Below are positions 1 to 5,897 of a stretch of 64,000 nucleotides of DNA, piece after piece. Each line of letters starts with the position of its first letter. Position 1 is the first letter of the stretch. The notes under the pieces were generated by a model. That model did no database searches. It worked only from the letters and a program-made list of their open reading frames with translations, and was not told the origin of the DNA. The position numbers and the translations under genes were made by a program. Origin of the DNA: a virus. The DNA lies in the IMG/VR virus record IMGVR_UViG_3300009128_000008, positions 1 through 64,000 of that record; one strand, given 5' to 3'.

Positions 1-1530
1 TGCCCCCTCTCTTGCCACCAAGGCGGCTTCAACTCTATATGTGGCTATTTTATTATTTATCTCAATTAGTTTAGAAAGCTGTCCCTCTCGCCTCTTATCT
101 CCAGCCTTCATCACCTTCATCATAGCATCTTCACCCTCTGGAAGTTTAAGATCTACGGTGGTTAAATCTCCTGCCCTCATTTTCTCTATAATGGCATAAG
201 CCTGCCTTCTGGTTTCAGCGACTTTAAAAGGGCCAGTCGTCAACATCTGAACCTGTTTAAGCATTTGAGCGGCTGCTGCCTGACTACCAGCCGCCTCTTC
301 TCTAGTAACAAGTTCGCCGCCAAACATTTTTCTCATGGCAGATTCAACTTTGCCCGCCACTTCATCTACCTTGCCCTCCGCCAGCATAATATCAATTTCG
401 AATGCTCCCTGAAGACCACCAACGCCGCCTGTCATTCCAGATAAAAATGCTTGCTGGGCTATATCCATATCTGAAATACCTTTCGTAAACCCTTTAACAA
501 TATCGGCAATAGCTCGCGGACCATATCCGCTTTCTGCCAATGCGGGTCCAAAAGATGCCATTACGTCAATTGCTCCTTGTGTGTTATCACCCAAATACAG
601 AAATTGAGCCGCTACATCCTGAGCATATTTTTTCATAATTCCCATTGGTATTTCCGTCTTTTGAGACGCAAGATGCATTTTAGAAAGTGCTTCTAGTGCG
701 CCTTTTGTGCCGGTTGTAAAATCTTTCTGCACGTCCTTCATATAATTGGTAACCTCGGCAAGCTCCAACAATGTTCCTTGCGTTACCTTTATAACAGATT
801 CTTCGGCAATTAAAGCCGGATATAACTGTTTAGTAAATGTAATCATCTTATCCATACTTCCCGGGATAGCCATAAGTTCATGCTGAAGTTTTGCCACTCG
901 CTCCGAATACAAACCAGTAGCATTACCAACTAGCTCTGCATCTTTGGCAAATTTAAGAACTTTGGTGCCAGTCATTTCATAATTATTATTTAATGATTTC
1001 ATCATTTTAGACAAGCCACCAGCGGCAGCGGCTTGTTTTAATAGGGCATTTTCCATATTTCTGCCAGCATCTCCGGCAGCAGCTATATTGGCCATAAAAT
1101 TTATAGCTTTTGCGCCAGTTTCTCCAAAAATCTTAGAAACTATTTTAGATCCTGATGCTCGTCTAATAAATTCATCCATTTGGGCAGACATTTCTTTGGC
1201 GCCATCTGCCATGCTGAAAAATCCGCCAGACATTTTAAATAATTCTTTATCAACCCCCATTGCAATTAAGGTACCAAACTTTACAGCCATCATCTCCAAT
1301 TCTGCGCTGGTGGCCCCAATACTGCCGCCAAGATTGTCCATGGCAGTTTTTATACGGCCTACATCCGCATCAGAAATACCAATATCTGTTTTATCTAACC
1401 CCTTATATAAGGTGGTGGCAAATTGATCAGCTGATTTGCGAAGCTTGTCTAAAACTTCCTTGACTTTTTTGCCCCTTTCAATTAATTTTTGTAGGGCGTC
1501 TGGAGTTGCTGCTACATCTATATCTGCCAT
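1..1530 (-). CDS. Tape measure protein, N-terminal 510 residues (runs off left edge)
   Basis: An open frame of 510 codons runs without a stop from an ATG at 1530 to the window edge, so the 3' part is missing. The translation is rich in Ala, Gly, Met and Lys, and is largely helical with Gly-rich breaks, as is usual in tape measure proteins that set tail length and are later ejected. The start lies one base after the stop of the second tail-assembly chaperone (stop 1532-1534). Sheath, tube, chaperone pair, tape measure is the classical gene order in contractile-tailed phages, and the identification rests mainly on this order. No recognisable enzymatic domain is visible in the part present. Confidence 0.8.
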   Translation of the reverse strand, partial: MADIDVAATPDALQKLIERGKKVKEVLDKLRKSADQFATTLYKGLDKTDIGISDADVGRIKTAMDNLGGSIGATSAELEMMAVKFGTLIAMGVDKELFKMSGGFFSMADGAKEMSAQMDEFIRRASGSKIVSKIFGETGAKAINFMANIAAAGDAGRNMENALLKQAAAAGGLSKMMKSLNNNYEMTGTKVLKFAKDAELVGNATGLYSERVAKLQHELMAIPGSMDKMITFTKQLYPALIAEESVIKVTQGTLLELAEVTNYMKDVQKDFTTGTKGALEALSKMHLASQKTEIPMGIMKKYAQDVAAQFLYLGDNTQGAIDVMASFGPALAESGYGPRAIADIVKGFTKGISDMDIAQQAFLSGMTGGVGGLQGAFEIDIMLAEGKVDEVAGKVESAMRKMFGGELVTREEAAGSQAAAAQMLKQVQMLTTGPFKVAETRRQAYAIIEKMRAGDLTTVDLKLPEGEDAMMKVMKAGDKRREGQLSKLIEINNKIATYRVEAALVAREGA

Positions 1531-1531
1531 A

Positions 1532-1855
1532 TTATTCTCTATTAATTACGCGGCGCCTTCTGTGCGGCCTTAAGCTATTCTGTGGTTGTTTGGCTTTCTT
1601 TTGTCGATCGGCTAGAACCATTTGTGAAGATCTCTCAAAATCAGCATCTGACACAGAAACTGAGCTTTCTTCATTCATCATTTTTTGAGCCATCTCAGGA
1701 TTTGAAAATGCACCATTAAATATTGCATAATGCTTGGCAAATTCATTCTTTTCTTCTAAATCACCGACCCAAGACTCATACATCCACAATTTCAGAAACG
1801 GGTCTATCTCATCAAACCACGGGTCGTTCGGTATTTTCTGGAATGTTTTACACAC
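1532..1855 (-). CDS. Tail assembly chaperone, downstream (frameshift-fused) part
   Basis: This short protein has the pattern 'NDPWFDEIDPFLKLWMYESW' near its start, typical of the second tail-assembly chaperone found just before the tape measure gene. The only start in frame is a GTG at 1855 with no ribosome-binding site at a workable distance (AAAGGAG lies about 24 bases upstream). The frame is open upstream as far as the slippery run at 1891-1897 and is in the -1 phase relative to the preceding gene. The product is therefore probably made mainly as a C-terminal extension of the upstream chaperone, as in lambda gpG-gpGT. Free initiation at GTG is the alternative. Confidence 0.75.
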   Translation of the reverse strand: MCKTFQKIPNDPWFDEIDPFLKLWMYESWVGDLEEKNEFAKHYAIFNGAFSNPEMAQKMMNEESSVSVSDADFERSSQMVLADRQKKAKQPQNSLRPHRRRRVINRE

Positions 1856-1884
1856 AAACCATCGAAATCTATGATCCGGCTCCT

Positions 1885-1900
1885 TTATGATTTTTTTATT
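1885..1900 (-). other. Probable programmed -1 ribosomal frameshift site (A AAA AAA)
   Basis: Read on the minus strand, the last codons of the upstream chaperone are GCA ATA AAA AAA TCA TAA. The heptamer A-AAA-AAA (1891-1897) is in the correct phase for tandem slippage. After a -1 slip the frame continues ATC ATA AAG GAG CCG with no stop and enters the second chaperone frame. An AAAGGAG element lies just downstream of the heptamer. Frameshifting between tail-assembly chaperones is well established in lambda and many other tailed phages. Efficiency cannot be judged from sequence. Confidence 0.75.
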
Positions 1901-2574
1901 GCGTCCGCTACTTCCTTTACATCCTCTTCGGTCTTAACTGCATATTGATTTTGTGCTTTTTCGGTAATTATTTTATATTTATCATGGATATACGCCGCTA
2001 CCGAATCTGACAAAGAATCAAATAGAGCTAATCGCGCCTCCATAGAATCATCACCAATAACTTCCGCCAACAAATACCCATTAATCTGATATACTGATCT
2101 GGCTAATGTTTGTGTGCGAAGCTCAAATCCCAACTCTGCCGCCGACATCTCCTGTAAAGAAACAGTTTTTGCAATTTCTTTTATTTCTCCGGTGCTTAAC
2201 GTCCTAATTGAAAAGTTTACTCCATCTATCTCAAATTCATCAGTTACTTTGCCCAAGCCTATTAAGAATTCTACTCTTTTTTTGGCTTCAACTGTAAGGC
2301 CTCTACCAGTCTGACGCATATCTTCCAAATTGCGCCTATCTTCATTCGATAATACCTGCGGTTGTGGCTGTGATGCAAACGATCTGCCCTCTCCTGCAGC
2401 CCGAGGTGTTTCAAACCTATTTTGAGGCATTTGTTGAGGAGCCTGTCGTGGTACCCGCTGAGGAATTTGCTGATCTTGCGCGGGAGGATTACTAGCATCC
2501 TCCACAGTATATACTTCTCTTTTATTTCCTGTTTGAAACGAAGTACTTCCCAATTCACTTTCAATTTCTGTCAT
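1885..2574 (-). CDS. Tail assembly chaperone, upstream part
   Basis: The 229-aa protein has a low-complexity Gln/Pro-rich N-terminal third (residues about 25-75) followed by a compact, mostly helical domain. Its position between the tail tube and tape measure genes, and the slippery sequence at its 3' end, identify it as the first tail-assembly chaperone. Such proteins coat the tape measure before the tube polymerises around it and are absent from the mature virion. The Gln/Pro-rich extension is unusual for the family. The start ATG at 2574 follows AGGAAG at proper spacing, and a sigma70-like promoter lies about 60 bases upstream. Confidence 0.75.
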   Translation of the reverse strand: MTEIESELGSTSFQTGNKREVYTVEDASNPPAQDQQIPQRVPRQAPQQMPQNRFETPRAAGEGRSFASQPQPQVLSNEDRRNLEDMRQTGRGLTVEAKKRVEFLIGLGKVTDEFEIDGVNFSIRTLSTGEIKEIAKTVSLQEMSAAELGFELRTQTLARSVYQINGYLLAEVIGDDSMEARLALFDSLSDSVAAYIHDKYKIITEKAQNQYAVKTEEDVKEVADAIKKS

Positions 2575-2761: not shown

Positions 2762-3382
2762 CTAATCCGTCAAAAACGCATTCAGCAAACCGGGTGCATC
2801 CAAAGCTCCACGGAAATCCCCTCTATCAGCTTCTTGCTCAAATGAATTAATATGAATGTTCTCAATATATCCGTTAGGAATTGTAGTGACCACATTATTC
2901 ATGTTTAATGTGCTATAAATGTCTTCCGCTTTCCAGGCCATATTATCTGAAATAACCCAATCGGCAGCACTATAAACATAATTGATATTTTCTATCCATA
3001 CGTTTTTTATAGTGGTTATAATTGAGTTTCCAGGATCTGAGTCGGCGAACTGATCGTGAATTTCTATATCAAAAGGGATGCGCTGAGATTTAACATGGAT
3101 ATATCCACGACTAAATGCTTCAGCTATACGCATCTTGTCAAACCTGGTACGTTTGCAAGATCCACTAATATCTGTAGATTTTGCTGGAGCACTATCTATA
3201 TGACCATCTGTTCCTACTTCATCAATCATAGTAATAGTTGGCCGAGCTTCTGTAATATTAAGCTCTTGTACAGCTCCAACAACATTTCCAGCAACTAAAA
3301 TAATAATATTAGTTGATAGATGCGTTGCCGTTCTATTGTTACCGTCTTGGTCAAATAACTGTGTATTTGTGTTTCTAGGCAT
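2762..3382 (-). CDS. Tail tube protein
   Basis: This 206-aa protein has the size and features of contractile-tail tube subunits. A central beta-rich segment contains 'EVGTDGHIDSAPAKST' followed by 'RTRFDKMRIAEAFSRGYIHV', a pattern seen in tube proteins of large myoviruses. It lies directly downstream of the tail sheath gene in transcription order and upstream of the chaperones, as expected. The tube polymerises around the tape measure and conducts DNA on injection. It carries no DGY tripeptide, unlike most neighbouring tail genes. Confidence 0.8.
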   Translation of the reverse strand: MPRNTNTQLFDQDGNNRTATHLSTNIIILVAGNVVGAVQELNITEARPTITMIDEVGTDGHIDSAPAKSTDISGSCKRTRFDKMRIAEAFSRGYIHVKSQRIPFDIEIHDQFADSDPGNSIITTIKNVWIENINYVYSAADWVISDNMAWKAEDIYSTLNMNNVVTTIPNGYIENIHINSFEQEADRGDFRGALDAPGLLNAFLTD

Positions 3383-3437: not shown

Positions 3438-5897
3438 TTACAGGACACCAACACCAACCCTAATGTAAATCCAGTTTACAGGATATACGGGCTGTACTGC
3501 CACTGAAATATTCCATTGTCTCGGATCTACGCTATCTCTAACAACCCTCAGATCCGCAAATTGTGTTATAAGCTTCTGCGAAATGAAGCTCTGCATAACA
3601 CTTGTGGCTCTGGCCAGTAATGTGCCTTGGAAGGTTTCTGACTCCGGAGATCCTGGGAATCCAGCAAAAGCAGCTCTCATGCTCTTTGCAATACGATCCC
3701 TAATAAATATGATGCTTATTTCTTCTTCTTCTGGGTATCCACTCTGGGTTGTCGTCTTACCCCAAATTACGGTACCGCCTCCAATCGCTGGTTGTAACGT
3801 TGTAATACCAGCTACAGCTAAATTCTCCAATGTAATCGGCCTAAATAGCTTGTCCCTCAAAATTGTAAATCCGGCCAACACCTTATTAGTTAGAGGAATA
3901 GAAACATTGGTCACGCCAGATAAATATCCAGCTGCTGCCGCGGCCATAAAGAACCCATCAACCAATGTGTTATCAGCCCCGATTTGTACAACTATCTGAT
4001 CTGGATAGAAATATACTACACGGAATGTTCCGCCAAAGGAATTAGGAACACCATAGTTAGTAAGATCCTCGACATTTCCTGACAAAATTTCAGATATATC
4101 ATCGCCCTGAATGCCCTCAAGAATACCAATATCTTCTACAGCAGCGGGCGTGGTGCCAATTACATTAGCTGGTGTCAAGCCCTGAATTGCCCCTATAAAC
4201 AACATTCGCTCTTTCTTGTTCTTAATATTACTCATGGCCTCACAATGCAGCCTAGCAGCCTGGAAAATAGCGCTAATTGTCTGAGAGGGAAGAGGAACCA
4301 CTATATCGCACTCAATCAATTCTAGTGCTTCCAGGGCCTCTTGCCATCCAACATCGAAAAAGTCTGCATCACGTGTGTCCACAACAGTAGCTCGCAAGCT
4401 CTGTCCAAGCGTTAAAGCTAAGTCCGAAGTGAATAAGATTCGAGCACTGCTATCACTTGTATCCAACACCCTAAATTCTGCGCCGGTTTCACTCACAAAC
4501 CCGCCAGGATCGGTGATTGTTGCAACACCTTCACTGACAGATACAATGCTATAAGTTCCAGCATTAGCGGCAGGAGCTAGTATTCTTATCTCTCTGGTTG
4601 CGCTCAGGTCATCCAAATTAAACTCTACGGTTGTACTACTTATTGTAGCGGTAGTGGGGGTTACCGGAGTAATTGCTCCATCATCGCCCTCTTTTTGTAC
4701 AGAATCTTCAAGAATTACTGTATAAGCATAAGTATAACCAACGCCATACATAAAGAGCGTAGGAGCTGCCGTAATAGCCGCGTCATAAAAATCTACTTTA
4801 TTAGGCACGATTTGTGTTTCAGACCCTGTAACCGGATCCGTAACAAAGAAATTAATATTAGTATCAACATCCGGGAACACATTAATTGGCAAAGCAAATG
4901 TAAGATCATCAGGAGCAGTACCACCAGACGCCGACTGTTCTAACACATAAGAAACTCTGCGCGGAATACTTGGTGCAGCCTGGCAACAGTAAACACCAGG
5001 AGGCTGATTGGCAAATGCAATCTGACATCCTAATGTAAGCCTATTATCTGTACTTGCCGAACCATGTTTTGTAGAGATCTCATCCATGTCCGAGAAAAAC
5101 TCCGGATCATTTAAATCTATTTCAGCAATATAATTTGCTATCAATGAATCTCCAGCAATTAATGAGCCACTCTCCACTTCTATTGTAAATGCATCACCCT
5201 CTCGGAACGCAGTAGATCCCTCAGAAATCGAGAAGGTCAATATTGTGTTGGATTCGGTAACACCATTGGACTGCCAAACAACATTATTTCCATAGCCATC
5301 TAACAGAATTCCACTAACCGATCCACTAGCAATAAATTTCGCATACCCATCGATAGGATTGCCATAACCATCTCGCACAACAGATACACACCTAACTGTC
5401 CAGGTTTCAGTGGGCGCATTTAAATCAACAAGGCTAAGACCATTAATCACACCGTTTCCAACATTGGCGCCACTTGCCTCCCAATAAGAGCCGCCTTGAT
5501 CCACAAGATGAGCAGTCTGTAATTCTACGTATCCAAGGGTAATATCTAAACGATAATCATATCGATCACTAAACGACCCTCCTGCAGTAGCAAACCCCGC
5601 CTGTTCCAGACCTACTAAGGGTATCCCATTTTTGTATAATACCGTACGGTTAGCTATTACTGGGGCGTATGTAAGCAAAAAGTGCCTACCGTCGCTACCG
5701 GTGGTTGACGTATATGTGGAATTCAATCCATCGTTACCATCCCCTACCGCAGAATTAACTAATCTCTCTACCCTTTCGCCTTCACCAACAATAGCGGCAA
5801 TCCTAAGGCCGCCTGGTACTGATACGCCACGAGATACTGTTTCTACATCTATATAGGGACCAGGGAGTGCATTTGTTGAACCTGGAAAATTTGCCAT
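3438..5897 (-). CDS. Contractile tail sheath protein
   Basis: The 819-aa product ends in a conserved sheath-type C-terminal half. It contains 'AAAAAGYLSG', then a stretch ending 'NLAVAGITTLQP', then 'ISIIFIRDRIAKSMR' and a final beta-strand-rich tail, all characteristic of sheath subunits that interlock between rings. The N-terminus has 'VPGGLRIAAIVGEGER', like other sheath N-termini. The middle 350 residues form inserted beta-rich surface domains, including three DGY tripeptides in about 30 residues (roughly residues 174-202). The start ATG at 5897 follows GAGG at good spacing. Its leader carries a perfect palindrome (5918-5931). Confidence 0.9.
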   Translation of the reverse strand: MANFPGSTNALPGPYIDVETVSRGVSVPGGLRIAAIVGEGERVERLVNSAVGDGNDGLNSTYTSTTGSDGRHFLLTYAPVIANRTVLYKNGIPLVGLEQAGFATAGGSFSDRYDYRLDITLGYVELQTAHLVDQGGSYWEASGANVGNGVINGLSLVDLNAPTETWTVRCVSVVRDGYGNPIDGYAKFIASGSVSGILLDGYGNNVVWQSNGVTESNTILTFSISEGSTAFREGDAFTIEVESGSLIAGDSLIANYIAEIDLNDPEFFSDMDEISTKHGSASTDNRLTLGCQIAFANQPPGVYCCQAAPSIPRRVSYVLEQSASGGTAPDDLTFALPINVFPDVDTNINFFVTDPVTGSETQIVPNKVDFYDAAITAAPTLFMYGVGYTYAYTVILEDSVQKEGDDGAITPVTPTTATISSTTVEFNLDDLSATREIRILAPAANAGTYSIVSVSEGVATITDPGGFVSETGAEFRVLDTSDSSARILFTSDLALTLGQSLRATVVDTRDADFFDVGWQEALEALELIECDIVVPLPSQTISAIFQAARLHCEAMSNIKNKKERMLFIGAIQGLTPANVIGTTPAAVEDIGILEGIQGDDISEILSGNVEDLTNYGVPNSFGGTFRVVYFYPDQIVVQIGADNTLVDGFFMAAAAAGYLSGVTNVSIPLTNKVLAGFTILRDKLFRPITLENLAVAGITTLQPAIGGGTVIWGKTTTQSGYPEEEEISIIFIRDRIAKSMRAAFAGFPGSPESETFQGTLLARATSVMQSFISQKLITQFADLRVVRDSVDPRQWNISVAVQPVYPVNWIYIRVGVGVL

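Follow-up and report, generated by a model that had tools for sequence, protein, structure and literature searches.

Probable -1 ribosomal frameshifting between two tail assembly chaperone parts of an uncultured phage, with relatives in which the second frame lies at +1

The locus considered here raises the question of how a protein-like reading frame, which overlaps the end of a tail assembly chaperone gene and has no workable start near the junction, comes to be translated. It lies in a 64,000-nucleotide stretch of viral DNA, hereafter the window, where the chaperone pair takes the form of two overlapping open reading frames (ORFs) between the sheath and tube genes on one side and the tape-measure gene on the other, the tube and tape-measure genes being placed by position. 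An earlier note on this DNA had claimed that a -1 slip on A-AAA-AAA joins the two chaperones, following the logic of lambda G/GT in a probable jumbo phage.

The junction and its gene setting

The features that bear on this claim, in order of coordinates, are the following:

1..1530, minus strand: gene that follows the chaperone pair, placed where the tape-measure gene is expected, and runs off the window
1532..1891, minus strand: -1 frame (gpT-like) extension, 119 codons from ATC plus the stop, beginning IIKEPDHRFRWF..., recognized from the alignment of relatives and from PHROG chaperone matches in relatives
1885..1887, minus strand: zero-frame stop TAA, one codon past the heptamer, read from the sequence
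1885..2574, minus strand: zero-frame tail assembly chaperone (gpG-like), an ORF of 229 aa ending ...DAIKKS before the stop
1891..1897, minus strand: slippery heptamer A_AAA_AAA, in phase with the zero frame, read from the sequence and kept in relatives
2762..3382, minus strand: candidate tail tube protein, the upstream neighbour, identified by its position and kept between sheath and chaperone in relatives
3438..5897, minus strand: contractile tail sheath protein (PHROG tail sheath, E 1e-11; below-cutoff matches to Pfam Phage_sheath)

At the junction the minus strand reads GAC GCA ATA AAA AAA TCA TAA AGG AGC CGG; the heptamer occupies 1897-1891 and the stop 1887-1885, and the chaperone end GCA ATA AAA AAA TCA TAA and the coordinates given for it in the earlier note are exact. 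The heptamer is in phase, and a -1 slip on it would lead, as had been claimed, without stop codons into the second frame, the post-slip reading being ATC ATA AAG GAG CCG GAT CAT AGA TTT CGA TGG TTT GTG... (IIKEPDHRFRWFVCK...). This frame runs through 119 codons (IIKEPDHRFRWFVCKTFQKIPNDPWF...) to its end at 1532. The sole start-like codon near the junction in the -1 frame is a GTG situated 36 nt in (codon 13; GTG 1855), and no ATG, GTG or TTG occurs upstream of it in the window. The Shine-Dalgarno (SD)-like run closest to this GTG, AAGGAG, is read from the sequence at about 24 nt upstream, which is too far; it sits just past the junction and encodes a conserved K-E-P. As the earlier note had it, the second frame lacks a start served by a workable ribosome-binding site, and the residues before the GTG, which it had taken to look like protein, are conserved in relatives as IV.EP.HRF.WF.

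In the alignment of the first protein, members match the PHROG tail assembly chaperone families 2792 (11/39), 2992 (5/39) and 344 (4/39), and in that of the second domain they match the tail assembly chaperone families 25000 (11/39) and 4988 (8/39); the first protein of the window itself did not match any family significantly. As modelled by AlphaFold, this protein contains a block with pLDDT 94-98 over residues 111-210, and the best match of the model in the PDB is the HK97 TAC, 2OB9 (probability 0.99 and TM 0.63 on target, although E is as high as 0.09). The model of the second domain is helical and matched no fold in the PDB, on which account we infer its role by analogy with lambda. The families found for both parts in relatives, the HK97 fold and the gene order agree with the earlier identification of the pair as two tail assembly chaperone parts. 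The gene in the tape-measure position did not itself match any family convincingly. PHROG 1316, labelled "RNA polymerase beta subunit", also matches 10/39 of the second-domain proteins (best E 4.5e-8), and this label is probably wrong or mixed. In six relatives (L025, L026, L027, L029, L031 and L032) two tandem tube-like genes lie between sheath and chaperone.

Several relatives are on contigs of 200-480 kb, reaching up to 481 kb, and Bacillus phage G (497 kb) is among them. These sizes make the earlier attribution to a jumbo phage plausible, although the source record itself is a virus fragment of 84,695 bases. No tRNA genes were found in the window (1-64000).

Conservation of the slip site and rival accounts of the junction

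When the first chaperone was used as the query no close relatives were found, and tblastn in cultured phages was equally empty; because this protein retrieved nothing, the conserved sheath of the window was used as bait, and relatives whose sheath identity to it goes down to about 45% were retrieved from IMG/VR. The genome collection yielded no relatives of the window sheath, and its matches among cultured phages were Eggerthella phage LE2-3 and Bacillus phage G only. The resulting 197 sequences are the window plus 196 fetched loci, among which one contig is often represented by several overlapping copies. The second domain was seen in 179 of the 197, which reduce to 91 distinct junctions, and, with the shift direction computed from each chaperone's own frame, it lies at -1 in 75 of these, at +1 in 16 and in frame in none.

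Heptamer conservation, which the earlier note had proposed as a check, is complete across the -1 group: each of the 75 distinct -1 junctions carries, in phase, one of the canonical slippery heptamers, namely A_AAA_AAA in 59, A_AAA_AAC in 10, A_AAA_AAG in 1 and U_UUA_AAA in 5. For comparison, in-phase A_AAA_AAR/C occurs elsewhere at 87 of 185,763 codon positions in ORFs of at least 150 aa around the first 56 junctions. We found no -1 relative with the contrary pattern named in that note, namely a missing heptamer together with a conserved separate start for the second frame. Five loci (L186, L189, L192, L193 and L194) lack A_AAA_AAN and have U_UUA_AAA one codon upstream, a turnover of the heptamer within the -1 group.

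The codon preceding the two slippery codons specifies I, V, L or A, yet it ends in A in 70/70 A_AAA_AAN junctions, and the first slippery codon (the first Lys) is AAA in the same 70/70. Measured against each locus's own codon usage, the nominal log10 P is -30.5 for the A-ending preceding codon and -13.9 for the first AAA, values that are too strong in that related rows were counted as independent. In L049, L050 and phage G the overlap of the frames is only about 10 nt, essentially the heptamer, and therefore the slip must fall there. Moreover, in the alignment of relatives the second frame is conserved from its very first residue at the slip site, and in 50 of the first 56 -1 junctions it is without any start before codon 13.

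Judged against synonymous recoding, SD-like elements and downstream stem-loops are selected at the level of the family. In the -1 group the P-site codon is preceded by an SD-like element whose centre lies 10-14 nt before it (mean best energy -6.0 vs -3.9, z -6.5), and a downstream 48-nt fold from +6 after the slip has a mean z of -1.77 (s.e. 0.20), the controls having z near 0 at -60, -30, +30, +120 and +150, with smaller negatives at +60 and +90. One universal stem-loop was considered and rejected, as a 9-bp stem placed at one constant register accounts for no more than some of the -1 junctions; other -1 clades seem to use different stems. In the window copy both stimulators are at chance level, the downstream fold having a z of +0.28 and the best SD-like element (-5.7) being equalled by 68% of recodings. 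Hence, the efficiency of the slip in the window may be low, or may rest on the heptamer alone.

We posit, with high confidence, that a programmed -1 ribosomal frameshift makes the fused chaperone in the window. The account in which the second frame is a separate gene, translationally coupled and begun at its own start (the GTG at 1855 or a non-standard codon), might draw on the SD-like AAGGAG just past the junction and on the GTG start that the annotators of LE2-3 gave to the second frame. However, the GTG lies about 24 nt beyond the SD-like run, conserved protein residues are encoded upstream of it, most relatives have no near-junction start in that frame, and AAGGAG already codes for the conserved K-E-P; we regard this account as exceedingly unlikely. 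Transcriptional slippage is very unlikely to make the fused frame, even though a run of seven A's is present in the window and 58 others (59/75 of the -1 junctions), because non-homopolymer heptamers are also kept (A_AAA_AAC in 10, A_AAA_AAG in 1, U_UUA_AAA in 5) in strict phase, and because the SD-like and stem-loop elements are under selection in the family. Poly-A runs are, furthermore, error-prone in sequencing, and one could imagine a single gene split by a sequencing or assembly error, or two unrelated adjacent genes, with the heptamer being coincidental. This has a negligible likelihood, given that the same out-of-frame layout recurs in 75 distinct -1 junctions, that of the cultured phage G included, and that 0/91 junctions are in frame.

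Under the proposed -1 frameshift, most ribosomes would synthesize the 229-aa chaperone and halt at the TAA at 1887-1885, while a minority, with two tRNA-Lys on AAA AAA, would move back one base on A_AAA_AAA and continue in the -1 frame to give a fusion product some 347 aa long (228 + 119). If the two forms act as in lambda, the short one would coat the tape-measure protein and the rare long one would recruit tube subunits by means of its helical C-terminal domain, so that the slip, in setting their ratio, would control tail assembly. Heptamer and second-frame conservation, the families, the fold and the gene order together favour the earlier reading of a -1 frameshift with the lambda G/GT logic, and, as judged from sequence, the window pair appears to be a well-supported new member of that class.

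The +1 relatives and the direction of the slip

The second frame lies at +1, reckoned from the chaperone's own frame and confirmed by homology in most cases, in 16 relatives (L014, L015, L016, L017, L021, L022, L024, L056-L060, L063, L069, L106 and L129). All 16 have AAA AGY at the junction (AGT in 15, AGC in 1), and the second frame begins with GTG in 9/16, GTA in 6/16 and GCG in 1/16. We suggest that in these a P-site tRNA-Lys shifts from AAA to the AAA one base forward; in L014 and L017 the overlap, as read from the sequence, consists only of ACAAAAGTAGY, in which +1 on AAA_A is the sole cognate re-pairing. The fused proteins of the +1 and -1 groups align without any change in length (NK/VANDPEH vs KK/IVKEPDH). 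The conservation of AGY alone is no proof of a slow A-site codon, since it is constrained in part by the valine (or alanine) codon to which it gives rise in the new frame. In the +1 group a very strong SD-like element stands 14-17 nt ahead of the P-site codon (15 junctions; mean best -10.3 vs -5.5, z -6.4), and position +6 gives no sign of a downstream structure (z -0.35). Known +1 stimulation involves an SD adjacent to the E site at short spacing (PMC6321510), from which the spacing in the +1 relatives differs.

The strength of this element and its placement, unlike the known short +1 spacing (PMC6321510), along with the GTG that begins the second frame in 9/16, would be compatible with a -2 shift or internal initiation at the GTG in place of a +1 slip on AAA_A. 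We nevertheless deem this unlikely: the six GTA and one GCG beginnings are non-starts, the distance from the SD to the GTG is about 20 nt, and the short overlap in L014 and L017 leaves +1 on AAA_A as the only cognate re-pairing.

With the +1 slip as the preferred reading, the two groups imply that the direction of slippage was probably switched within one group of homologous chaperone genes. In sheath trees the +1 rows cluster with one -1 row (L049) inside, requiring two direction changes; a single +1 clade is not rejected by the AU test (p 0.265). Our joint reading, which we consider probable, is that an ancestral -1 tandem slip on A_AAA_AAR with a downstream stem-loop gave way to a +1 slip on AAA_AGY, with the strong upstream SD-like element and no downstream stem, that left the length of the fused product across the join unchanged; the L049 lineage has perhaps reverted to -1. 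As its SD spacing misfits the known +1 geometry, the +1 cassette may represent a type not yet described. In the open-licence papers that were searched, no case was met of a direction change within a single group of homologues.

Significance and comparison with known systems

These observations extend a documented form of morphogenetic recoding to a large set of uncultured phages with contractile tails, and fix the correct annotation of the second chaperone, which gene callers easily miss or provide with a false start. They also bring together a natural set of -1 and +1 shifts that solve one problem; since homologous proteins flank the junction whichever way the slip goes, how its direction can switch without loss of the product is directly testable. 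The frameshift itself is a known device of tailed phages; what deserves to be followed up is the switch among relatives.

Frameshifting in tail chaperones is widely conserved in long-tailed phages, being -1, -2 or +1 depending on the phage (PMC5009743); PRFect encountered both directions in the SEA-PHAGES set (PMC10885494), and efficiencies of 6-7% have been measured for HK97-like chaperones (PMC3711429). Like the lambda gpG/gpGT system of Xu, Hendrix and Duda, the window has a two-part chaperone beside the tape measure gene, with a predicted rare -1 fusion arising close to where the first gene ends (PMC5009743). Unlike lambda, the window phage is contractile-tailed, has its chaperone after the sheath and tube genes, shows no recognisable sequence similarity and has its own heptamer.

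Closer parallels are offered by the two cultured phages. Bacillus phage G gp181/gp182 (NC_023719) has a homologous second domain, recovered by iterated tblastn, the junction TTA AAA AAC TAG, an annotation as chaperone plus joined extension, and a matching order with sheath and structural genes upstream and the tape measure downstream; it differs from the window in being distant, in its far longer C-terminal part (252 codons) and in its heptamer, A_AAA_AAC. Eggerthella phage LE2-3 LE23_86/87 (MW679026) displays the order sheath, hypothetical gene, chaperone and overlapping -1 ORF, the last being probably an unannotated frameshift; unlike in the window, the second part is not recognisably similar, and the two are annotated as separate genes, the second GTG-started. 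The LE2-3 chaperone (L124 6420-7156, MW679026) ends GCG CTA AAA AAA TAA.

Beyond tail genes, the -1 cassettes of E. coli dnaX and the IS3 family combine A_AAA_AAR with an upstream SD-like element and a downstream stem-loop (PMC4066793, PMC6321510), as does the family of the window; the gene and its purpose are different, and the window copy's own stimulators are not significant. Finally, a +1 tail chaperone frameshift, the direction also seen in our 16 relatives, has been proposed for the archaeal virus HSTV-2 (PMC5009743, PMC8211752). In that case the direction differs between distant viruses, whereas here it appears to differ within one homologous group.
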